In this document: positions 3,128 through 61,353 of the stretch, piece by piece
Layout: the number at the start of each line of letters is the position of its first letter
Numbering within the stretch: the stretch's first letter is position 1
Assembly: GCF_051622035.1 (NCBI RefSeq)
Contig: NC_135355.1
Coordinates: 39,351,986 to 39,415,985, forward strand
Length of the DNA: 64,000 nt
Reading direction: 5' to 3'
DNA from: Arctopsyche grandis
Taxonomy: Eukaryota; Arthropoda; Insecta; Trichoptera; Hydropsychidae
Made by a program: the position numbers and the translations under genes
Notes under the pieces: model-generated
Database searches by the model: none
The model's input: the letters and a program-made list of their open reading frames with translations, nothing else
What the model was told of the DNA's origin: nothing

Positions 3128-6100
3128 ATGGAGACTTCACAATCTAATAACTCCGAAGAAGCGACTGCAAGTTCAACCGAAGAAGCGGGTCCAAGGTTTG
3201 TTTTCAATGTAATTTTACATGATTAAATCTATGTATACGAGATTCAAAAATATTAGCTTGATTAATTTAAATTTTAATAAGTTTAATTTCCAAATATTAC
3301 ATAAATTGTATGCATGTATCGACATTAATGTTCTAAATATCACGATGTTTTTTTGATGAATTAAGAAATATTATATTAGATTTTAATTCTTAAATATTAA
3401 TAGTTTTCTGATTATTCGTATTGTATCTTTAAAATATAATTATTATTATCCCAAAATATTATTTTTAAATACAAATATAAATTACTTCTATGTGATTCGA
3501 TTTTATGCCAAAAATAAATGTTCCATTTCTAAAGATTTTCGACGCGACAGTGTGATATTCGAAACTTGGTGAAATTTTATTTTATTAGAAAATGTGTCAT
3601 TTTTTGTTTCCTGCTATAAATTATAACTTATATACATACATATGTTCATCTAATATATAATTTCTAGAGAGACATTGTATGTAACTATATATAGGTATAT
3701 AAGGTTTAATGTAAGTATTTAAGGTTTGTGTCCGAGACGTTATCGAATAAATCTAATTTTCTATGCGACAATATTTTTATCTGTTCCGATTTCTACGACG
3801 ATCATTTTTTCAGTGCCGGTTCCGGATTCCTTTTTTAAATTCCGGTTCCAGTTTCCTTTTTAAGATTCCTTTTCAGTTCCGTATCCGGAGTTTGGGTGGT
3901 AGAATCTGTGATTTTATACAAAAAATCTAATTTTCTATGATATCTTTATCAGTTCCAATTACGATGACGACTACTTTTTCAGTTTCAGTTTCGGATTATT
4001 TTTTCAGTTCCACCTCTGAATGCCTTTTTCAGTCCCGGGTCCGGATTCCTATTCAGATCCGTATCCGGATTCTTGTTTCTATTCCGAATCCGGATTCCTT
4101 TTTCAGACCGGATCAGGACTATTTTTACAACTTGGGTTCCCTTATATAAAAAAAATCTTTAAATGTTATTTTTTTCGATTCAAATAAATTTAATAAAAAA
4201 AAAACAAATTAATATATACTATTAGATTAGCCATGTTTAAGCGGTTTATACATATTACAAATACCTAAAAAAAAAATTGAAACCTTTCGAATTTTTTTGA
4301 AAAAAAAGATAAAAATTTTCCTGAAATAATTGTCACTTTTGAATAGACAAAAGATCCTTCATAACCTGTATTCAAATAATCTCTAAAATGCAGAAGAAAA
4401 TTTCATAAATTTGAGTTATATTTACATATTTCAAACCCGTCCAAAATATGTAGTTAACATACATACATATGTATGTACGGAAAAAAGTTTTAAAATCACT
4501 TGTTTTACAGAAGACATCAATGCCTTAAATCGTTTTTCTTTAAATAAAATTGTCATTCTATCATACTAGATATTTTAGTATGATAGAATGTAAATTTTAT
4601 TATGTACGGGTGGAAAATTCTAGTCAACAAACTTTTCATTTCTTACATACATTTTTATATATTTTTGAGCTTAAACGGTTGAAAACACATCTTTAAAATT
4701 CGGATTTTTTAATTTCAGATTTCGATGAAATGAAAATATATTTGATTACAGTAAAATCAATATTTTAAAATATATATTTGACAAAAAACAGAAATATCGT
4801 TAAACGCATTACGTAAAAGAACTATGTATATAAGATAAAAGTTTACAAAAAGTGATTGTTTTCAAAATAAATTTTCATCAGAACAGCCTGTTATTGTATT
4901 GAAAATGACCATCCACATGAAAATATTTCATAATATTTTAATATAAATTTATAAAATCGACTAAATTCGATAACATATAAAGTGAGATAAACGATAAGCT
5001 GAAAATTTTGCTTGAAAAATTGAGATATGAATCGTATTCTAGAATGTTCGAGAGCTGCTATTTTTATATATATCATACATACATATGTTTAGTATATGAT
5101 TATAAATATATAAAAATAATGGCGATTTAATAGCGACAGCAAATTTTGTAGCGTTAGAAATTTTGAAAAATTTGTTTGTTAATAATTTGGCAAATATATC
5201 TCATTTGATATTTTCTAATTCATTCTCGATTGCAAACACTAATAAATACAGGCTTCTATTAGCTAACCTTTTTTTTTTGAGGTTTGGGTAATTTTACTAC
5301 TTCCGTGGTAAATTAAAAATACGTATATATGTACAGTATACATTTTATACGATATTAACCGAAGTTGGCCAAATTATTTGATAATTATTACAAACAAATT
5401 TTCCAAAATTTCTAATGCTACAAAATTAATGTCATTGTTACTGTGCAATTTTTTCCGATAAGTGAATGAAAAACACTTGAAATTGATCTTATTGGGAGAT
5501 ATATCGTATTAAATTTATTTATGACTGAACTAATAATGATTATATAAAAAAGGGTGCGCCTAATACATGACGATATTTTTGAGGAGTTTTTATCTTTAAG
5601 TGAGTATTATTGATGTATGTATGTATGTACATAGTATTCGAATGAAAATAATTGGGCAGAGAAATTTACACATTAAAGTAGACTGAATTAACCCCTACAG
5701 ACCCAGTGTACATTGCAATGTACAGTAATTTGAATGTGTTTTTGTGGTCTAGTTGACGTATTATTATATTTTGGGCCTTTTGTACATCGTGTGTACATCT
5801 TATTAATTCAGTTAGCATTGACAGTGCTGCCATCAAAGGTAAGAGAACTGAGTTACATGACAGTTTGTCAACGATGTTACGGTCCGAGCGCACGGATCCC
5901 GGTATGTCAGATTTGTTTTCGCTGTTTTGTTGCAAAGAAATCAATTTTTTTGCATTATTTTGACATGATATCTATGCTTTATTTATTATTACTACATCTT
6001 TATCATCTCAAGATTTTTATAAACTGCTTGAAATTTTTGGTAAGATAATTTGTACATTTATACAGACCATTTTTAAATTACAATGTACGTGCTGTATTTT

Positions 6101-9100
6101 CCAAAAAAATTGTCTTAAAAAAACTCACTTAATAGAATTCTATAAAAAATATTTTTTTCATCCAAAGATAAAAAGTCACGTCTGTAAGGGTTAATAATTA
6201 ATCTTTAAACACTTAAAATGGTTTAAAACTGTAACAGCTTAAAAATGGTTTTTATTTGCTAATATTAAATAGGGGAGGCCGGCGCTGTTTTCTACAATTT
6301 TCAATTTATGATTTTTCTATTAATTGGAGGTATATAAATATCAACTGATTATAACCATTCAAAACTATAATTCAAAACATATACATATCACATTTTACAA
6401 ATAACCTGGAACAGTTCTAATATGGATGGTTGCCATAAGTAGAACCAAGAAATCGGAAAAAGCACAATACAAAAAAAATACATTATTTATAAAAATCGGA
6501 AAACAGTCTGAAACATATAATACACACATATTTTTATAATATGTACATTGAGCAGGAAATTAACATTGATCTAAATAGCAAACCATACTGAAGTAAACAT
6601 ATAATACAAATAAAAATTCAAAAACAAATTATATATTGTAGTAAAAAATAATAAAAATCGAAATTAAAGTTATCAGAGTTAATGTAGGTGGAAAAATATT
6701 TTTTAATTTTAGTTTTTTCGCTAAAATCTATTTAAAACACAGAATAAAAAACAATCAGAAACATATTTAAAATTCATTGTATGTAAATCACTATAACAAT
6801 AAACAAGTAATACAACTAATACAAGTTCATTAAATTCTTATTAATCACTACAATAATAAACAAATATTCAACAATATACAAAACTAAATAAAATACGACT
6901 ATTTAACTAAAGGATAACGTCTCTGTTTTATACTAGCAAACTTATCAATAACTTTCTCAATATCGATATTTTTGGTATCCTCTTGTTGACTTGATTATAT
7001 TTTGCGTGCAAAGTAAGCTAATGGGTCGATAATTGGCCGGGATTTTTGGGCTTTTGTCGGGCTAAGGTATGGGAATTACGTTGGCTGTTTTATTCAACGG
7101 GTATTCTGGGAAATACCCGTTGAATATTTTAGATAATGAGACTAAAGCTTTAAATGGAAGTTGTTTGATTATGATGTTATCTATTGAATCTCGCCCAGGT
7201 GCCTTTTTATTTTTAAATTACGTATTATATTTTGGATTTCACACGGATGCACCAATATTATATTTTTAGTACTATTAGTGGGAGTTTTTGTGATGATTTT
7301 AAAGGACCGGTTGACTTTATTATGCGTTGGTATGTGATTGTAATGGTATAAAGATTTGGAAAGATAACTTATATATGCTTATACCTAATAAGAATCACAT
7401 AGTTTGTTATTGAAGTTGACAAATTTTGATGGTAAATAACAAAAATTATCGTGATTTATGAAAAATTAGAACTATTCGATAGTTTATGTTAAAAATTTCC
7501 CAGATCAAATAACTCTTTGGAAATAATTTTCCTGAATTAAATGACAATTTTTGGATGGACAAAAAATCCTTCCTCGCCTGTATAGAAATAATGTCTAAAA
7601 TGCAGAAGAAAAGTTCATAAATAAATACATTTGAGTTATATCTATGTATTTCAAACCGGTCCAATATATATATGTATGTATGTATGTAGTTTATAATATA
7701 TGCATTGTTGTGATAAAATCTCTCGTTTTACAGAAAATCGTTTTTCTTTCAATAAAATTTATATTCTATCATACTAGAACGTCATGTTCATTAAAATGAA
7801 TATAGTTGGAAATTCTAGTCAACTCAGAATTCGTATGCTAAAGACAAAAATAGTTTTATTGAAACATTATTCTTATAATTACGACTTTTAAGATAATTCA
7901 AAGAATTATAAGCATTGTATTCATCCCTTTTATTATTTACTTTTCAATCATATCCATATTTAATTGAATATTTCGATCAAAAAAATGACAAAACTATAAT
8001 TCTAATTATTCACATTCTACTTCAATAAGCAGAAAACACAATGTGTTCACATTTTTGTAGCTAGTCGACATTTTGGCGGTTTGAGAATTATATACGTGTG
8101 AAATATAGTGGTAAAAATTCGCGTTAAAATCAGAGGGATGGCGCTTTTACAATCTAGTAACATCAAACCAGATTTTTCAGCTGAAAAAGTGGGTCCAGCG
8201 GAAAAGTTTTTATAGATACATAAAAATATTTAAAAAAGTATCGGATGACCGATTTAATTTATTTATATTAATATCCTAACATATGTAGTATATTTTTTCA
8301 AAAATTTAAACCGTTAACGGATTGTATTTTTTTTTCTCGAAATTGATGCTCTCAATATATTTATTTTGTTAGATTTAAAAAAATATATATAAGATTTGTT
8401 TTTCTGAAAATTCAATTCTTTCTCATCCTGATAATTTGATTGTTATTTATGAATTCAATTTTATTTTGAAAACTGACTTTATCCCAAAAGTTAGATTCAT
8501 TCTAGTAAATTCAATTTACATGTATATGATATGTGTTCATTAACTGAAATGTGATTTTATTCTGCAATGAAAAATTATTGACTGATTTTTCTGAAAATTC
8601 AATTGTATCTTTTATTAATATTGATTATATTCCTATAGTTTTTCGAAACTTTGTCATTAAAAGCTTTTTTTATTTATTAACTGCTTTTTATCGTCATACT
8701 CTGGAACGTTTATGATAATAAGTTTTAACTGATTCAAACTGTGTGTGTGTGTGTATTTTGAGGATATTTTGAACTCCGTTAGTCCTGTCGAGTTGAAACT
8801 TGGTATCGGTTATTAAAATGCTAATCGATATGACGTATATTTTTTCAAATTTTTAAGTTGATGGGAAATGGTATCTTCCTTTATAGGTATCCCCTTTTTT
8901 AAGTTTAAGTTTCACGATAAATTATAAATCATGATATTTATTATTTGATGAGATTATTCAGAGTGAAAAAAAAAAAAAAAAGACAAACATCATAGTTAAA
9001 TATTTGTTTATATTTCAAAAAGTTGACCAAATAGAAAAACGTAGGGAAAATTTCACAAGACAAAAATTATACTTTTGGCTGTCGGATGTTGTTTAAAATG

Positions 9101-12100
9101 CTATTATTATTATTAAAATCACTATAAATATCAGAAACAAAAAATACCAAGAAGATAAAAATAATTTAAAAGGTCTAATTAAAATAATGAAATATTGTTT
9201 TCAAAAAATATTACTTCTGGCTTACGATTCTAGCCAAAACTTTGTCAACTTTAAGTAAGTCCATGAAAAATACCAACATTTCAGATTGATACCTTCAAAA
9301 ATTCTGTTTCATAGGACTAACGGTGTTCCAAAAATCCCCAAAATACTGAATGATCCACACATACCCACTTTTAAGTAATTAAATATTTTATGAAGAAATA
9401 AAAAATTTTGAACAAAATCCAACAAAACGAATAGAAGCTTTGTCTTGTGTCTGTTTCCGTATATATACATAAGTGATAAAACTTGTATAGAAAAAGTTCT
9501 CATTGGCGGTATGCGTGAATGTAATTATATGTGTCTTTGTCGAATTTTGTTTTTTAAAGTCATGGGTTGGTTACATCGGATTTTTTTTTAAAAACAAATG
9601 TTTCCACTTATATTATAAATAAATTGCTTGGTTAATGTATCATCCGACTGTAAATATAACATGTTTTATCTTAATTCCATTACAGAGCATTAGAGAATAC
9701 GGGAGAAAAAGAGGGAGAAAAACCTACAAACAAAAGTAAGCATTTCACGAAAATTAAATTTAAATATAAGAAGTCACGGAGAGATTGTCACGATTATATA
9801 ACTTTAATTTCTAGAAGCACCAGCCAGACAAATTCAAGAAGGTCGCAATTATGAGGGCTACATTGCCATGTTGTTTATCATGAGAGCCGTTTTTAGCAAA
9901 TTCATATTTAAAATCGGCGTCGAGATAGAACCAGCCAGAAAGTTCGACGATCTTGTCTTTTTGCGAGAAGAAGGAGAAAAGCAAACCAGTCGCTGTTTGC
10001 AAGCTAAACACAATGCGACTGGGAAGAAGAAGATCGACTCGATGAGTTTACTAACTGGTGACGATAGCGATTTTAGTATCATCAAATACTTTTTCGCTTA
10101 CAAAGATATGGTAGGAGACGATTACTTCAAGGGGATAGAACAGGAAGATCTCATCGTATACACCAACATCCCGTTAGATATGGAAAGCAGTATAGGTCCC
10201 AAAATGATTCTGACCGACCAGTTGATGACATTCGATCCAATTGACGTTAATTCTAAACCCAAAAAGCTCAAAGATTTATTTGAACGCGTAACTGATCAAG
10301 ATAGTATTCTCGACGTAACAAAGGAAGAATCTTGTCGTTATAAATTTAACGATAAACTAATACATATTTTGTTATGTAAAGCCAACGAATATAATGTTAC
10401 AAGACTTGCACAAGCACTGAAGGATTGGATTACGGGACAAAAGAGTTTACAACAGGTGGAGGACGTCATAAGACCATATTGGAAGTTTTTGACAGAAGAA
10501 ATCATTGACGTCGATCAAAAAAAATTCTACGGCGGCTTTTTAAAATTGAATAAGAAAGTCGCGTCAAAGGAAGCTCAGCTGTTTCACAAGAAAATAACCG
10601 AGGAATGTGTTCGTAAAAACAAACAAAACCAAAAGAAAGACGACAACTTTAAAACTGATGATATAAGTGTTGAATATTTAAATCAACGAATGGGGGAAAT
10701 ATCGGAGTATCCCATTTGGGAATTACCTTTAAAAGACGTCAAGATGAATAGCGTCATTAAAGTGGAAGAGATACAAGCATTTTTTGGACTATTTGTTTTT
10801 GCAGTAAACCAACCGGATCAATCGGAATTAAAGGAAATCATTAAACAAGATATATTACAGGAACACAAAAGAAAATATGGCGATGATGACTTCCACAAAG
10901 AAGACATTGACCGATACGTGGATGACATATTGCAGTATTTTCACTCTGAAGTGTTCAATTGGACGGGAGAGGAAGTAGTTAGGATAAAGAAGAAAGAAAA
11001 AGAAATAAAATACAAGACCTTTGAAAACAGTCACCAATTATTAGAATGGAAGGCGGTGAAATTCAACGTCCAAAATCCTGTGAAATCATTCATGGGCCGG
11101 GACAAAGAAATCGAAGATTTAAGCAGCAAAATTCGGATGGGAAAAATAAAGAACGAGCACACGAACGTGATTTGCGGACTTCCGGGAATGGGAAAGTCAG
11201 AACTGGTTCGTGGATATATTCAAAAATACCACAGGCAGCACGAAAATATAATTATTTGGATCGATGCAGGATCCCGTGAATCCATGGAGGACTCTTTTCG
11301 ACGATTGGCCGAGATATTGAACAAAACCACAAAGCAACCGGACGAAACATTAGAAAACATCGACAAAGTTGTAGAGCACGTCTACCGTGAGTTCTATCCG
11401 AAAAAGTGCCTCTTCGTCTTTGACGATGCTTGCAATATGGATAGTATCGATCCATTTATGCCCAAGGAGAGTGATTTTGGAACAAAGTTGCCATTTGTAA
11501 TTATAACTACGGCGACCTCAGATTGGAAATTCAAAACGGACCTGACGGTATTGAGTCCTGAAAACGCAAAGAAACTAGTGGAAAATCAAATCAGTGTTAA
11601 AGATAAACTGGATACAGATCGCGTAAAACTACTTGTTCAAATGTTGGAATTTTTCCCATTGGCGATTCAACAAGTGGCAGTATATATTGAAAAAAAATTA
11701 GAAGAAAATAGCGAGTATACAGTTTCAAAATGTATTGACGAGTTTAATGAAAGTTCGGGGGTAATATTAAAAATGGAGTTACCGGAAGAAATAAGTTCTT
11801 ACAAGAAAAATACATTCACAAATTTCAGGAATATTCTCCAAAGCATTTTGAATTATGAAAATATTGGTAAAAAGGCCATTGAGGTTATCAACGTGATTTC
11901 TTTCTTGGCTACGAAAGACATTAAAACAGAATGGTTGGAAAGCTTTTTTAAAGTAAAATTGGAAGAAGAATTCGGGATTTTAATAGAGTACTCGATCATT
12001 AAGATTGAATCTGGAAATATTACTATTCACAGTTTGGTGCAGTTAGTGACGCGGCTGATGATGAAGGAGCAAAATTTGGAAGAAACCTTCATTGAAAAAA

Positions 12101-14073
12101 CGATAGAGTTTATGGAACACGTTCATCCAAAAAAATATTCCATGAGTGACTTTCATACGAAACGTGAATTAACTTTTCATTTGGAGGCTTTTATATTGTG
12201 TGTCGACGAAATTTATGCATCCGGGTCTGATGATAATCACACGTTCTATATTGAAGAAATATTATGGACTTTGGGGAATTGCTATTCCGTCACACAAAAC
12301 CATAAAAAGGGAAAGGAAGTTTATGAGCGATTGGAATCAATTGTGAGGCATAAATATGGCAAAGACGACGTGAAAACGATCAATGCTCGGATGAATTTGG
12401 CGACTGCAGAACGCAATTTGGGAAATTACGCCATCGCAAAATCTCATTACGACGAGGTTTTTGCCGCCCTGAAGAAAATTTACGGCGAAGATCATGTGCA
12501 AACGGTCAAAGCTCGGATGAATTTGGCGAATGCAGAAAGAAATTTAGGAAATTACGCCATCGCAAAATCTCATTACGACGAGGTTTTTGCCGCCCTGAAG
12601 AAAATTTACGGCGAAGATCATGCGGAAACGGTCAAAGCTCGGATGAATTTGGCGAATGCAGAAAGAAATTTAGGAAATTACGCCATCGCAAAATCTCATT
12701 ACGACGAGGTTTTTGCCGCCCTGAAGAAAATTTACGGCGAAGATCATGCGGAAACGGTCACAGCTCGGATGAATTTGGCGAATGCAGAAAGAAATTTAGG
12801 AAATTACGCCATCGCAAAATCTCATTACGACGAGGTTTTTGCCGCCCTGAAGAAAATTTACGGCGAAGATCATGCGGAAACGGTCACAGCTCGGATGAAT
12901 TTGGCGAATGCAGAAAGAAATTTAGGAAATTACGCCATCGCAAAATCTCATTACGACGAGGTTTTTGCCGCCCTGAAGAAAATTTACGGCGAAGATCATG
13001 CGGAAACGGTCAAAGCTCGGATGAATTTGGCGAATGCAGAAAGAAATTTAGGAAATTACGCCATCGCAAAATCTCATTACGACGAGGTTTTTGCCACCCG
13101 GAAGAAAATTTACGGCGAAGATCATGTGGAAACGGTCACAGCTCGGATGGGTTTGGCGAATGCAGAAAGCGATTTAGGAAATTACGCCATCGCAAAATCT
13201 CATTACGACGAGGTTTTTGCCGCCCGGAAGAAAATTTACGGCGAAGATCATGTGGAAACGGTCTCAGCTCGGAACAATTTGGCTGTCGCAGAAGGGTTTT
13301 TAGGAAATTACGCCATCGCAAAATCTCATTACGACGAGGTTTTTGCCGCCCTGAAGAAAATTTACGGCGAAGATCATGTGAAAACGGTCACAGCTCGGAT
13401 GAATTTGGCGACTGCAGAAAGCGATTTAGGAAATTACGCCATCGCAAAATCTCATTACGACGAGGTTTTTGCCGCCCTGAAGAAAATTTACGGCGAAGAT
13501 CATGTGGAAACGGTCACAGCTCGGATGGGTTTGGCGACTGCAGAAAGCGATTTAGGAAATTACGCCATCGCAAAATCTCATTACGATGAGGTTTTTGCCG
13601 CCCTGAAGAAAATTTACGGCGAAGATCATGTGGAAACGGTCACAGCTCGGATGAATTTGGCGATTGCAGAACGCAATTTGGGAAATTACGCCATCGCAAA
13701 ATCTCATTACGACGAGGTTTTTGCCGCCCGGAAGAAAATTTACGGCGAAGATCATGTGCAAACGGTCACAGCTCGGATGAATTTGGCGAATGCCGAAAGC
13801 GATTTAGGAAATTACGCCATCGCAAAATCTCATTACGACGAGGTTTTTGCCGCCCGGAAGAAAATTTACGGCGAAGATCATGTGGCAACGGCAACAGTTA
13901 TTTATAATATGGGATGTTTGGAACAAAGTTTGAAAAATTACACGGCAGCTAAAATGTATTACGAGAAGGCTTTGAAAGTGTATGTCGAATTTTATGGTGA
14001 ACAACATGAGAGGACAGTTAATATTCATAAAAAGTTCAAATCAACGTGCCATCGTAGTTGCACTATAATATAG
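3128..14073 (+). CDS. STAND NTPase: PD-(D/E)xK-like nuclease + NB-ARC + TPR array
   Basis: The exons are 3128-3195, 9686-9735 and 9815-14073, joined at GT/AG sites in matching phase (2, then 1), giving 1458 residues. Residues 47-120 read as a nuclease fold: E53 in helix A, D84-D85, then Q102-x-K104-H105, a PD-(D/E)xK-type site as in Mrr/Cap4-like nucleases. A helical region of unknown type follows. The ATPase shows Walker A GLPGMGKS (494-501), Walker B LFVFDD (572-577), VIITT (601-605), a GLPLA-like FFPLAI (652-657) and an MHD-like IHS (777-779). TPR units fill 906-1409, with degenerate units on both sides. The ATG at 9868 is internal, because the conserved nuclease segment begins upstream of it. 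By analogy with bacterial Avs proteins and NLRs, the TPRs would sense a ligand, the ATPase would oligomerise and the nuclease would act. That role is inference. The protein ends CTII, a possible prenylation box. Confidence 0.85.
3649..4265 (+). mobile_element. Degenerate Helitron-like element
   Basis: It begins A|TCTAATATATAATTTCTAGAGAGACATTG, like the Helitrons at 2355 and 34439, and its right part has the AAGCGGTTTATA segment that precedes the 3' hairpin in the 2355 copy. The terminal hairpin and CTAG have decayed. The interior (about 3790-4110) is a set of diverged short repeats with TCCGGATTCCTTTTTCAG. It lies in intron 1 of the STAND gene. Confidence 0.55.
4270..4660. repeat. Intron 1 duplication, copy 1 (partner at 7480-7830)
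   Basis: The blocks CTGAAATAATTGTCACTTTTG, AATGCAGAAGAAAA, TTTGAGTTATAT, TTCTATCATACTAGA and GGAAAATTCTAGTCAAC recur in the same order at 7480-7830. Together with the promoter block it shows tandem duplication of intron 1 material with a period near 3.2 kb. It also holds a short inverted repeat around 4555-4590 (TTCTATCATACTAGA/TAGTATGATAGAA). Confidence 0.65.
5133..5434. mobile_element. Inverted-repeat MITE in intron 1
   Basis: The left end GACAGCAAATTTTGTAGCGT and the right end (TGCTACAAAATTAATGTC) are inverted copies, and the match continues inward for about 50 bp. The interior is AT-rich without an ORF. The superfamily is not determined. Confidence 0.6.
5455..6440 (+). repeat. Promoter/first-exon duplication unit, copy 2
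   Basis: It shows the same ordered landmarks as copy 1: GATAAGTGAATGA, GGGTGCGCCTAA, TTTATCTTTAAGTGA, GGAGGCCGGCGCTGTTT near 6275 and CAACTGATTATAACCATTCAA near 6340. It is interrupted by the TTAA MITE at 5688-6194. The stretch matching the 2749 ORF is broken. No exon follows directly; the related exon 1B lies further on at 8138. Confidence 0.55.
5688..6194. mobile_element. TTAA-flanked MITE (ACCCCTACAGAC family)
   Basis: The ends read TTAACCCCTACAGAC and GTCTGTAAGGGTTAA, which are terminal inverted repeats with TTAA at both borders as for piggyBac-type insertions. The ORFs inside (for example 5734-6048) resemble nothing I know and are taken as chance. Confidence 0.75.
6441..8137. other. Intron 1 stretch with partial duplication, otherwise unassigned
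   Basis: It is AT-rich. The block 7480-7830 duplicates 4270-4660. A perfect 15-bp stem with a 6-nt loop (CTGGGA) lies at 7088-7123, inside GC-richer sequence that could be a decayed LINE piece. No gene is supported. Confidence 0.5.
8138..8205 (+). other. Alternative or relic first exon (exon 1B)
   Basis: An ATG at 8138 opens 68 bases, the same length and phase as exon 1 at 3128-3195, and both follow an AAAATCAGxGGGATGG context. The encoded peptides share M...QSxN...GP. Splicing after 8205 (AA|GTTTTT) onto 9686 would give an in-frame isoform of equal length. The donor is weak (GTTTTT against GTTTGT in exon 1), so this may be a true alternative start exon or a decaying duplicate. Confidence 0.45.
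8730..9600 (+). repeat. Dispersed ACCGGAAGT repeat family, copy B (partial)
   Basis: It begins with GTGTGTGTATTTTGAGGATA and the segment TTAGTCCTGTCGAGTTGAA seen in the other copies. It lacks middle blocks and ends in the GTCATGGGTTGGTTACATC block that also ends copy D. It lies just upstream of exon 2 of the STAND gene. Confidence 0.65.
9686..9735 (+). other. Short second exon of the STAND gene
   Basis: The 50-bp exon lies between acceptor TTACAG and donor GTAAGC. It starts in phase 2 (A completes the AG of exon 1 to give AGA) and ends in phase 1 (A joins AA of exon 3). It encodes a charged linker, ALENTGEKEGEKPTNK. The exact in-phase fit to both neighbours is the main evidence. Confidence 0.7.
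9815..14073 (+). CDS. Main coding exon of the STAND gene
   Basis: This exon carries 97% of the coding sequence and is open for 4259 bases. The acceptor ends TTTCTAG at 9814. The frame runs from AA|GCA through the in-frame ATG at 9868 to TAG at 14071-14073. The part before 9868 encodes a GxxYEGYIA segment, which belongs to the first helix of the nuclease fold, so translation does not start at 9868. The absence of introns across the NB-ARC and TPR parts is unusual beside the heavily split NAPRT gene. It would fit a retroposed or horizontally acquired ancestor, but codon use is not obviously foreign. Confidence 0.85.
12412..13923 (+). repeat. Twelve-unit 126-bp tandem array coding TPRs
   Basis: Twelve consecutive in-frame 42-codon units, counted by the repeated GNYAIAKSHYDEVFA block, with no length change between units. 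Each is a TPR hairpin of the kinesin-light-chain-like 42-residue type. Residues 3-18 and 21-28 are constant. Units 2-5 differ only by K or T at residue 33. Degenerate units lie just before (KGKEVYERLESI) and after (TAAKMYYEKALKVY). Confidence 0.95.
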
Positions 14074-16771: not shown

Positions 16772-17934
<1,163 letters not shown>

Positions 17935-18439
17935 CAATAGAGACATCTATGTTACAATCAACACATTTTTTATACATAGCAAATTTGCAAAAAAGACATT
18001 GCGTATTTATAATAATCAACAATTTTGAATCTTGGTATCATTTTGACTGGTTCATATTTTCTTTTTTTTAGTTTTTCGTTGTTGATTTTTATTTTCATTT
18101 GATTCTTTCATTGTGTTATTTAATATTTGTATTTATGAAATATTGTATGATTATCAAACCCGTTGGGTCCATTGGCTTTTCCGTCTTTCTCAAGTATTCT
18201 TAAGTAAATAAATATACATCGCTTTTGTTAGTTTGGATCAATAAGAATTTCATAAATGTAGAGTGAAAAAATAAATAGTTATAGGCGTTCAAGCAATTAA
18301 AGCTAGATGACGGTGAAAAGGGATATTCATCAAGAAAACGCCGAGGCGAGCGCAGTGGGCGATCAATGCCACTGAACATTTAGGGCGATTAACGTCAGGA
18401 AGAATGTCGGCGGGCAGATTACAAACGCATCTTACACGA

Positions 18440-18600
18440 TATATTTGCACCATCGTAATGGCGGAGGCTTCATTTACTTATATTGATGAACAAAATGAGC
18501 AATATGGCAAAGTATGAAAACGATCGGATAAGAGGCAAACTTTTTCCTGAGTTGTAATCGTAAGTGAGACGTAAAAGAGGTTTGTAATAAAAGAAAACAT
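18440..18600 (+). mobile_element. RTE-like LINE 3' fragment
   Basis: CAAAATGAGCAATATGGCAA followed by AGTATGAAAACGATCGGATA matches, in reverse, 28540-28640 and 57860-57935. The segment belongs to the dispersed element whose minus-strand copy at 28340 reads GRPQGRWVDKI. Confidence 0.5.
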
Positions 18601-18889
18601 ATTTTTATAATTATTTATCAATCATACAGAGAAAAATGATGGAAAATGTTGGACAACACTCACCTAAGTGACGTTATCTTCAAAAGATAAGAGATATAAA
18701 AAAGTCGTTTTAATGTGAAACGTAAAGGTGGTTTGTAAAAATAAGCATAGTTCTGTCCTATAAACTATAGAATAACAAAAAATTATCAATATATACATAC
18801 ATACATACATACTCGTATGTACATAGCAACCGTTGATATAATTTCAATTCATCCTATTATATACGTATGTATATGTATGCATTTTAAAT

Positions 18890-19035
18890 AAAAATTTAAG
18901 AAATTTACTATGGCAAGTATCACAAAAATACTATTTGCAGTCCGTTTCTGCGTGAATTTTTTGTGTGGCCGCAAAAGCTCACAGGCTAATGCGGCCAAAT
19001 TGCGGCCCAGTAGCCTAGCCTTAATTTCGGCCATA
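18890..19035 (+). repeat. GGCAAGTATCACAAA repeat, second copy
   Basis: It pairs with 15885-16066. It is followed at 19036-19215 by sequence in which I recognise nothing. Confidence 0.6.
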
Positions 19036-19216
19036 CTATTATAACATGTAATTGCTCTCGACAACACTTTTATCCGCAGATTAAAACGTGGGCCACTTTT
19101 TACAAGCCTCTTCTATGTTTTCCTTCGCTCTGACAACATTTTGGTTTTGACATCCTACATTCTTCCGATCGTTTTGAAACTTCGCCATTTTTACAATCAA
19201 TGCTGCAATCATATTA

Positions 19217-20155
19217 GACAAGCCAAGTTCAGATCTGAAAATCCCCTCTGGGGAAAGTCTGAAATGGCAGTCAGTAATAAAATATTTAGGAGTAACGTTT
19301 GATAAAAGAATGAGATGGGCACCTCACATTGAGGCAGCGAAATGCAAGGCGATGCGGGGTATATCCTCAATATATCCAATATTTAATCGCCATAGTTCTT
19401 TATCAACGCTAAATAAAATAAAATTATATCGCGCGCTCATATTACCATTATTAACCTATGCTTCACATGTATGGAATAACGCCTCGAATACTAACATTTC
19501 CAAGCTCCAAGTAATACAAAATAAATCCCTAAAAATAATTTATAATACACCCATATATACTAACCTGAAAAAACTGCATGCCATATATAATATTCCGTTT
19601 GTTACAGACATTACTAACAAACTAACCAGTAGATTCTATGACAGAATCACTAATAACTAAAGAGCGGACCCAGAGCGCGCTGTTCATTGTTCACATGATG
19701 TAAATGCATTGTTAAAGGTTTGCCGAACCTTTTTTACAAAAGCATTTACAAAAATGGAACAATAGACGGCGCGCTTCCGGTCCTACCTCTACTAATAACC
19801 ATACTAACACATTTGTGAAGAGTCTCGGTGATTACAACAAAATGTCTATACCCGTCAGGTATAAACACAGATTACCAAAACACAATCTGCTTTAGGTCAT
19901 CGACTTTAGATAGTCTTTAATTAATATTATGTATTAGATGTATTATGAACATTTATAAGGATTGTAAATAGGTTTTTGAGCTCTTTTTCCTATTATGCTT
20001 TAGATTAACATTAAAATAATATAATACTGTGATTACTAACCAAATTAAATTAAATTGTAAAATAGAAAATGATTAGTAGATTAGTAGCTATTAAAATAGA
20101 TATAAGATGTATTGTGAACATAATTTCGTAATAATAAAAAGCATTTAAAAATCAA
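19217..20155 (+). mobile_element. Jockey-like LINE 3' fragment (RT C-terminus + 3' UTR)
   Basis: The frame is open upstream of the ATG at 19310 and reads SVIKYLGVTFDKRMRWAPHI, a hallmark of the end of the reverse transcriptase of Jockey-type non-LTR elements, then LTYASHVWNNASNTNISKLQ and a stop at 19660. The 3' UTR runs to an A-rich tail near 20155. It is 5'-truncated, the usual result of incomplete reverse transcription. Confidence 0.85.
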
Positions 20156-20411
20156 AAATATTAAACAAATTTTCCACAGCGAAACATGAAACAACCTACA
20201 GTAGGTTTTGTTATTAAATTACAAACAATCAAATGTTGTTTAATAGAAGCACTTTATCAATTTTGTCTATTATTTTCTTAAAAAAAAATTACGAAAATTT
20301 AATCATAACAGGGTTTTTTTATTAGTTTCACTTCGTTTGACAAACTTCAAGTATGTTGAACAAAACGAGCTTTTGCATTAATTTACGATCAAGAAATAAT
20401 TTGATTTTGAT

Positions 20412-20830
20412 TTTGATTTTTAAATGCTTTTATTATTACGAAATCATGTTCACAATACATCTTATATCAATTTAGCTACTGATCTACTTATCATTTTCTA
20501 TTTTACAATTTTAATTTAATTTTGTTATAAATCATATATTATTCCAACGTACAGCATGATAGGAAAAAAAGCTCAAAAACCTATTTACAATTCTTATAAA
20601 TGCTCATAATACATCTAATACATAATATTAATTAAATACTCTCTAAAGTCGATGACCTAAAGCAGATTGTGTTTAGGTAATCTGTGTGTTATACCTGAAG
20701 GGTATAGACATTTTGTTGTAATCACCGAGACTCTTCACAAGTGTGTTAGAATGGTTATTAGTGATTCTGCCATAGAATCCACTGCTTAGTTTGTTAGTAA
20801 TGTCTGTAACAAACATGTTTGACTTTCCAC
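20412..20830 (-). mobile_element. Same Jockey-like LINE, 3' end, inverted
   Basis: Reverse-complement match to the 3' UTR and last codons of the element at 19217-20155: ATTTTTAAATGCTTTTATTA at the tail, TTTAGCTACTGATCTACTTA inside, and CTTAGTTTGTTAGTAATGTC at the coding end. With the first copy it forms a head-to-head palindrome separated by about 250 bp. Confidence 0.75.
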
Positions 20831-21071
20831 CCCTGACTCGTTTTGGCAGATTTTAATTGTTTAAACGCCTATAAATTTATCATTTTCACACTATATCTTA
20901 TATAATTTACATTATAGACTCTCATTATCCCTTATTATTTTTATTCCAGGAATAGGTTATGTAATGAATGATAAAAATATGTTAATATAAATTGAGATTG
21001 TTGCGCGACTTTTTTGAAATTTCTATTTTCGATCTCACCTGTGTACATATCTGTGTTTCAGATTTCTTCTC

Positions 21072-21885
21072 CAGTGCTACTCAAACTTTTTCAGCTGGCA
21101 GACCAGTTTATATTTTTCAGTAATTCTCACGGACCAGCATCATATTTTAAAATAAAAAGGTTACATATATATGTATATGCTTGAAAACATGTAAAAAAAT
21201 AAAAATAAAATAAAATCTAAGTAGTAAAATTATTTTATTGAATTCAAAGAAGTACTTAGACAAAGATAAAAAATGAAAATACAAAAAAAACTAATGATAC
21301 ATACATATAAGCTTGTTTGTTATTAGATAACTTATCCAGTCGTGGTTTAATCGATGACAATGCCATACGCAATGGATCACAAATATCCCCACTATTACGA
21401 TGTTTTGTTTTAATTATACTCATGGTTGAGAAACCAGTCTCGCAAAGGTAAGTTGATGCAAATGGTAAAAGAGTTTTCACTGCAAGTTCATAAATATATG
21501 GGAATTCTACTTTTAATTTGATCCAAAAGCCTGTAAGTGAAGTTGTTGTTTCAAAACATTTTTTTTTAATTCTTGATTTGCAGTCAGATCAATTAGTTTA
21601 TCTTCCAAATTGGGTGATATTTCATCATTCCATGGCAAAAATTGATTTCGTATCCATCCTTTTCCCTTTTGTGGATCGTCATCTGGTGGAAAATAGAAAT
21701 CGAATCGCTCTGAGAAATTTGTCAAATGACAACTAATTATATCGCGCAAAGACGTCATATTAAGCTCCTCTCCTCCTTCGTAAATAATATCGCCAAATTG
21801 TGAAACATGTCATAGCAATCGTTTGAAACACGAATCTTCCATGTTTTTAGTTTCGTTTCAACCCATCTGTATTGTCTACCATTGT
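21072..21885 (-). mobile_element. hAT element, ZBED5-like, one end missing
   Basis: It starts with CAGTGCTACTCAAACTTTTT like the 16772 copy and lacks the TA expansion. Minus-strand relics are FPPDDDPQKGKGWIRN and LIDLTANQELKK (21560-21700) and LPFASTYLCETGFSTM (21410-21480). The other terminus is gone: sequence after about 21885 is unrelated. It is over 90% alike to the first copy by eye. Confidence 0.85.

Positions 21886-42947: not shown

Positions 42948-61353
<18,406 letters not shown>

Follow-up and report, generated by a model that had tools for sequence, protein, structure and literature searches.

A spliced, duplicated eukaryotic gene family joining a predicted Cap4-type nuclease to NB-ARC and TPR domains

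A three-exon gene and its surroundings

The window analyzed here is a 64,000-nucleotide stretch of DNA (C1:39351986-39415985) on a 42.7-Mb contig, C1, of an assembly of 475,669,232 bases (475.7 Mb) in 189 contigs. Joined in frame, three exons bounded by GT-AG splice sites encode a single protein of 1,458 residues, in agreement with the first-pass annotation, which had described one intact protein of that length. The features of the gene, with the evidence for each in parentheses, are:

3128..3195, + strand: exon 1, with the ATG start and an S/E/T-rich N-terminus (in-frame join, GT donor at 3196)
9686..9735, + strand: exon 2 (flanked by an AG acceptor and a GT donor; counterpart exon with its splice sites in both L009 and L010)
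9815..14073, + strand: exon 3, encoding nuclease, linker, NB-ARC, winged-helix region, TPR array, and stop (single 1,421-codon open frame from 9808)
9844..10197, + strand: predicted Cap4-type PD-(D/E)xK nuclease core (20-row alignment A2, PADLOC models of Cap4-type effectors and LmuA, profile-profile match with controls)
9853-9855 and 9922-9924 (Glu), 9946-9951 (Asp-Asp), 10000-10008 (Gln-x-Lys), + strand: putative catalytic codons of the nuclease (A2)
10198..11067, + strand: conserved remainder of the nuclease region, including NEYNxTRLA and PYWKFL, plus linker (conserved columns of alignments A1 and A2; no Pfam match)
11068..12087, + strand: STAND/NB-ARC ATPase with its winged-helix region (matches to Pfam nSTAND6 and AAA_22; NCBIfam FxSxx_TPR in all 15 members; motif table)
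11176-11199 (P-loop), 11404-11427 (Walker B), 12028-12030 (MHD-like His), + strand: ATPase motifs (motif table)
12355..13992, + strand: TPR array of 13 complete 42-residue units, TPR_12/TPR_10 (Pfam, Tandem Repeats Finder, translation)

The close paralogues L009 and L010 also carry exon 2, with its AG/GT borders, upstream of their exon 3; this comparison covers exons 2 and 3, with exon 1 lying beyond the stretches compared. The window also contains exons of a nicotinate phosphoribosyltransferase (NAPRT) gene, recognized by Pfam at 58471-58794 and 61036-61350. Because both genes are spliced, the window gene is a nuclear gene of a eukaryote. Judging by the size of the genome, the spliced genes, the neighbors, and the LINE-like frames, this eukaryote is probably an animal.

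Several other elements were observed in the window. A frame at 53149-53658 resembles nicotinate phosphoribosyltransferase by eye only, and a tandem 276-base unit (two copies, 89% matches) lies upstream of the NAPRT exons at 54012-54571. Frames at 16934-21809 look by eye like remnants of hAT-type transposases, and one at 19178-19657 like a LINE-like reverse transcriptase; the four such frames scanned had no Pfam match.

A large family of related genes

Searching the genome's own contigs yielded at least 61 matching stretches. The nuclease is present at at least 24 places on eight large contigs (C1, C3, C6, C9, C10, C11, C12, and C13), one of these being only a 77-residue piece; beyond them, two places have later parts of the protein only, and 20 have the STAND part only (26-31% identity). 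We fetched 21 of the 24 nuclease places (the window and L009 to L028), and at 13 of these a single open frame spans the nuclease, NB-ARC, and five or more TPR units, with further TPR units in a second frame in L009 and L015. In the other eight, the frame is shifted, stopped, or truncated, or a domain is missing: NB-ARC in L027, and any detected TPRs in L020. The same set of domains is found at many places in the genome, and its co-occurrence is therefore more than chance.

Three of the 20 STAND-only places (L031, L032, and L033) were examined, the 17 further ones being on C3, C6, C11, C12, and C13. All three have ankyrin repeats after NB-ARC instead of TPRs (by Pfam in L031 and L032, by eye in L033), and none has a nuclease match. 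About 400 residues precede NB-ARC in L031 and L033, with no convincing Pfam match, and hardly any do so in the L032 open frame. Measured from an end, the outer 15% of the contigs holds most places, 21 of the 24 with the nuclease and 17 of the 20 with STAND only, although these counts are not independent because the places cluster.

Downstream of close copies, the flanking sequence remains alike over 1.4 kb, with no sharp border in the part examined, a gradual pattern that fits segmental duplication. The best explanation of the family is that it is large and fast-changing, shaped by duplication and by gain, loss, and homogenization of TPR repeats, with the nuclease remaining constant. That it is instead a selfish gene family or cargo of a mobile element, spread by mobility and acting on rivals or non-carriers, appears improbable: copies do occur on eight contigs and some are broken, reverse-transcriptase frames lie near L012 and L027 (by eye), and short repeats are shared upstream, but the gradual downstream similarity and the retention of exon 2 in close copies argue against it.

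The nuclease domain and its catalytic residues

The first ~120 residues of exon 3 contain the series R-x-Y-E ... G-V-E-I ... F-D-D-L-V-F ... C-L-Q-x-K-H. The first-pass annotation had picked out E53, D84-D85, Q102, and K104 as nuclease residues (E16, D47-D48, Q65, and K67 of the frame from 9808, a difference of 37), and it read them correctly. In alignment A2, comprising 20 of the 21 fetched places (L024, with a stop codon, was left out) with nucleases 46-94% identical to that of the window, both Asp residues, the Gln, and the Lys are identical in all 20 members; position 53 is Glu in 19 of 20, as is position 76.

The ratio of nonsynonymous to synonymous change (dN/dS) in the nuclease core is 0.12 between the window gene and L009, 0.35 in the young pair L022 and L023, and 0.05-0.15 in six older pairs, for which dS (1.4-2.1) is near saturation. 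Among the eight usable pairs, the core has the lowest dN/dS of five regions in six, and another region is slightly lower in two; three further pairs, without usable dS, are outside these counts. Judged by these ratios, the nuclease core is under purifying selection, and the low dN/dS and the invariance of the D, D, Q, and K residues together point to active catalysis. We infer the fold of the N-terminal domain, which we describe as a predicted PD-(D/E)xK nuclease; AlphaFold run on the single sequence without an alignment gave a pLDDT of 34 for the nuclease, and 51 for the TPRs.

Relationship to bacterial Cap4 and LmuA nucleases

Among the 20 aligned members, PADLOC models match at E ≤ 1 as follows: SAVED_PDDEXK in 11 (best 2.6e-6), a CBASS endonuclease effector in eight (best 1.1e-5), and LmuA in one (3.7e-6). 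The match covers the catalytic stretch wherever positions were given. When ten members were scanned singly, six had no PADLOC match, and a Cmr3 match in one of the 20 members (9.1e-4) indicates that stray matches of moderate E-value happen. The Pfam nuclease models gave no direct match to the nuclease region, and the Pfam Cap4 model, PF14130, matched none of the 20 members at E-values up to 10, a search in which filters drop most matches above 0.1.

For comparison we collected bacterial PF14130 loci, which were matched in 5 of 200 and 9 of 299 genomes. Alignment A3 contains 13 of the 15 loci (the nuclease core was not recovered in L036 and L047), and the D, Q, and K residues are invariant across its 13 rows. 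Profile-profile comparison pairs the E, D-D, and Q-x-K of the two nuclease sets. A packaged tool reported a probability of 28 and an E-value of 6e-4, and a second run gave a score of 37.5, an E-value of 5e-5, and a probability of 67.5; among the controls, scores did not exceed 22.0 over 200 column shuffles, a reversed profile gave 14.8, and nine other segments of these proteins gave 10.3-14.0.

Other searches had a different yield. The nuclease profile found nothing in 299 proteobacterial genomes, in a search run without a positive control, and against sequences of solved structures it gave six matches (best E 0.14), five to NEMO/IKK-gamma chains, one to an ATPase, and none to a nuclease. The nuclease region had no tblastn match in phages and plasmids, and no relatives were found in viral contigs, phages, or plasmids.

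We conclude from the aligned motifs and profile matches that the predicted nuclease is a distant homologue of the Cap4 and LmuA nucleases of bacterial anti-phage systems. The PD-(D/E)xK-like nuclease of the first-pass annotation is thus borne out as akin to Cap4/LmuA by PADLOC and by profile-profile comparison; because these methods match where PF14130 does not, we call it homologous to that family rather than a member of PF14130. The likeness to Cap4 (a CBASS effector) and LmuA (Lamassu) consists of a homologous nuclease domain with aligned catalytic residues, and the difference is that the window nuclease is fused to STAND and TPR parts, whereas Cap4 has a SAVED domain and LmuA acts with partner proteins.

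The STAND switch

On the window protein, Pfam reports nSTAND6 above its cut-off, AAA_22 at its cut-off, and TPR_12 at E 4.8e-122. Pfam NB-ARC does not appear among the window protein's matches, but six of 15 paralogues reach that model at E ≤ 0.1 (best 3.9e-14). NCBIfam FxSxx_TPR (NF040586) matches all 15 members of alignment A1 (best 2.2e-48), with the window protein at 111.5 bits versus a curated cut-off of 300. A1 comprises 15 of the 21 fetched places, L010, L012, L017, L024, L025, and L028 being broken or short in this region and left out. Most of the 15 retain the P-loop, Walker B, sensor, GLPL-like motif, and an IHxLVQ where MHD would stand: the P-loop Lys is present in 14, the exception being L027, which is without NB-ARC, and the second Asp of Walker B in 12, with Gly there in L022 and L023. 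On these motifs, the central domain classifies as a STAND ATPase of the NB-ARC (AP-ATPase) clade. The NB-ARC motifs and the TPR array of the first-pass annotation are accordingly both present in the window protein, which has the P-loop, Walker B, GLPL-like motif, and IHxLVQ as well as 13 complete TPR units.

In L022 and L023 (C11:27.85-27.89 Mb), the nuclease residues are intact, and the Walker B Asp, GLPL, and MHD-like His are gone; these are perhaps helper, decoy, or constitutive forms. In L027 (L027:1415-4372), the nuclease is fused straight to TPR units in one 985-codon open frame, with NB-ARC absent. Not every copy, therefore, can be a regulated switch.

The L027 arrangement, in which the nuclease is joined directly to TPRs, lends some weight to an effector that cuts RNA, its PD-(D/E)xK domain acting on that substrate, or is mainly regulatory, the TPRs serving chiefly as a scaffold, as does the fact that the substrate of such a domain is not readable from sequence. 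Nonetheless, we regard an RNA-cutting or mainly regulatory effector as quite unlikely, given the constant D, D, Q, and K, the low dN/dS, and the description of a DUF4297 relative as a DNA nuclease in the portion available of PMC11291478.

Two known groups of proteins resemble the switch. The plant NLR Roq1 shares NB-ARC, with a weak sequence match (E 5e-4); it has LRRs rather than TPRs, and a TIR domain rather than a nuclease. The bacterial FxSxx-COOH AP-ATPase-TPR proteins (NF040586) are alike in that their model matches all 15 members, and differ in that the window protein scores below the model's cut-off and in that the AP-ATPase of the FxSxx-COOH system has an N-terminal TIR, according to the accessible text of PMC7159879.

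Phylogeny of the NB-ARC domain

An NB-ARC tree of 33 rows was built from 19 of the 21 family members (L024 and L027 fell out), the three ankyrin-family genes, and 11 of the 19 bacterial loci offered. All 19 family rows form one clade with support of 100/100. A fork (100/99) places the nuclease family, the three ankyrin genes, and L029, a bacterial row on a long branch, on one side and the ten other bacterial rows on the other; the tree gives no firm order within the family's side, its root is placed by midpoint only, and nine bacterial rows deviate in composition.

These data speak to the origin of the gene. The nuclease and NB-ARC-TPR parts have bacterial relatives, as would be expected under bacterial contamination or recent transfer from an endosymbiont, but such an origin is extremely improbable given the introns, the 42.7-Mb contig, the NAPRT gene in the same window, the 24 nuclease places, the single fully supported clade, and the lack of a tblastn match of the nuclease region in phages and plasmids. 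The first-pass annotation had allowed that the NB-ARC tree might reveal a contaminating contig; with a spliced gene in a 475.7-Mb genome, contamination is excluded, and we rejected it also on the spread of the family over eight large contigs with one NB-ARC clade. Ancient transfer is possible.

Scanning prokaryote genomes with the 15-row alignment gave 508 pattern matches, of which two encode a relative (L029 and L030), both by the STAND part. The proteobacterial L029 (L029:3183-8990) encodes a protein of 1,935 residues whose N-terminus looks lipase-like by eye and which also has NB-ARC and TPRs; on its domain content, this is a bacterial STAND protein with another effector. Two further bacterial proteins, L049 (1,992 residues; Avs1b 6.9e-12, LmuA 2e-6, SAVED_PDDEXK 2.8e-6) and L050 (1,981 residues; LmuA 6.1e-9), share the overall plan of the window protein, having a Cap4-type nuclease, a P-loop ATPase, and a long C-terminal region, with STAND and sensor parts that differ from its own.

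Variation within the TPR array

The array consists of 13 complete 42-residue units and one partial unit, and Tandem Repeats Finder reports a period of 126 with 12.1 copies and 95% matches. Over 286 units from 22 open frames, the most variable unit positions are 20, 17, 10, and 21. These correspond to TPR positions 12, 9, 2, and 13, all within the set (2, 5, 9, 12, and 13) that we take to be ligand-facing.

We compared changes at these five TPR positions with those elsewhere in eight of the 22 frames, which were picked for having like units, four of the eight coming from three broken genes. Minimal amino-acid changes number 129 at the five positions versus 392 elsewhere, and synonymous changes 31 versus 190, an enrichment of amino-acid change with an odds ratio of 2.0 (p 0.0012); column permutation gave p 1e-4 for amino-acid changes and 0.36 for synonymous changes. 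This was not a blind test, because the repeats of the window had been seen before the positions were named. On repetition the odds ratio was 2.5 (p 0.0076) with unbroken genes only and 2.1 with all 22 frames, the second frame of L009 being outside the first test and inside the repeat. Among units at least 90% identical, pN/pS is 2.41 at the presumed ligand-facing positions and 0.44 elsewhere, the pairs not being independent; at an identity limit of 85% the values are 1.04 and 0.50, and at 80% they are 0.85 and 0.58.

The pattern of TPR changes is suggestive of selection on recognition, although tolerance for change at surface positions could yield the same pattern. Variable repeats with a constant effector would fit equally well a cell-death or self/non-self switch, in which a STAND-nuclease self-destructs upon non-self or developmental cues, as has been proposed for fungal NLR-like proteins; the available part of a fungal NLR survey notes earlier indications of NLR-like genes in non-self recognition (PMC4986451). 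We consider such a switch unlikely, and favor a receptor for invaders.

A candidate receptor with a built-in nuclease

The account that we judge the likelier one, with moderate confidence, is that the window gene encodes an NLR-like intracellular receptor with a built-in nuclease effector, working as Avs3 does. At rest, the STAND ATPase would be closed. The TPR array would bind a ligand, which is probably either an invader protein or a self protein in modified form, and exchange of ADP for ATP would then let several copies assemble. Assembly would bring the N-terminal Cap4-type nucleases together in pairs to cut DNA (RNA being less likely), and this cutting would either destroy the genome of the invader or kill the infected cell. 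We infer the oligomerization, DNA cutting, ligand binding, and immune function, like the fold, from the likeness of the plan to that of bacterial Avs proteins, by analogy with which the TPRs would sense, NB-ARC would oligomerize, and paired nucleases would cut.

For SeAvs3, the accessible part of PMC11291478 describes binding of a viral protein leading to tetramerization, pairing of nuclease domains, and DNA cutting, with a nuclease of the same PD-(D/E)xK group as Cap4. Avs1 to Avs4 kill through cutting of phage and host DNA, and TPRs are present in the sensor of some Avs5 proteins, as given in the available sections of PMC12931631. Avs3 (AVAST type 3) and other nuclease-STAND anti-phage proteins, as far as described in these portions, resemble the window protein in their order of nuclease, STAND ATPase, and C-terminal sensor. 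Unlike Avs3, the window protein has an NB-ARC module near FxSxx_TPR and kinesin-light-chain-like TPRs, and is eukaryotic, spliced, and strongly duplicated. When exon-3 residues 1 to 864 were compared with PADLOC at E ≤ 1, mad8 (0.0044) was the sole match and no Avs model appeared, whereas the Avs1b model does match the bacterial L049. By analogy the window protein may act like Avs3, and we do not file it as an Avs.

The architecture of effector, NOD, and repeat sensor that marks animal NLR-like proteins is present in the window protein, whose host is probably an animal. The first-pass annotation had set its domain order apart from animal NLRs, which were said usually to carry death-fold effectors and NACHT-LRR. 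This contrast was too strong. Hydra and Acropora have NB-ARC/NACHT proteins whose repeats are TPR, WD40, or ankyrin, Trichoplax has ones with TPR or WD40, and the effectors are of the death-fold, CARD, or TIR kind (PMC7642931, PMC6321704); cnidarians have a HEPN nuclease domain together with NACHT (PMC8260672), all according to the accessible text of these papers. What stands is the effector, since the literature searched, which included few subscription papers, reports no Cap4-type nuclease on an animal NB-ARC-TPR protein. The Hydra, Acropora, and Trichoplax proteins are like the window protein in their central NB-ARC, TPR or ankyrin repeats, and expansion in some lineages, and differ in that the available portions of PMC7642931 and PMC6321704 describe no Cap4-type nuclease, which the window protein is predicted to have. 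The accessible parts of PMC8195603 and PMC7159879 describe bacterial conflict systems that have both STAND-related parts and restriction-endonuclease effectors. A Cap4-type nuclease as an effector in such a host thus seems undescribed, and the nuclease-NB-ARC-TPR architecture may already be present, unremarked, in annotated genomes.

More tentatively, and with a chance that we would put a little short of even, the family could be an animal counterpart of Avs: a repertoire, mostly at chromosome ends, of single-protein receptors with rapidly re-sculpted TPR sensors, a second arm of ankyrin STAND proteins, and direct cutting of nucleic acid that needs neither a death-fold adaptor nor a kinase cascade. 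If so, the bacterial logic of sensing, oligomerizing, and cutting would be contained within one eukaryotic, probably animal, polypeptide, and a catalytic DNA-cutting effector would join the animal NLR repertoire, raising the question of how a cell could tolerate such an enzyme alongside chromosomes of its own. Invertebrate NB-ARC-TPR genes would gain a testable function, and the family's many natural variants, in which the blade is constant and the sensors vary, would be useful for finding ligands.
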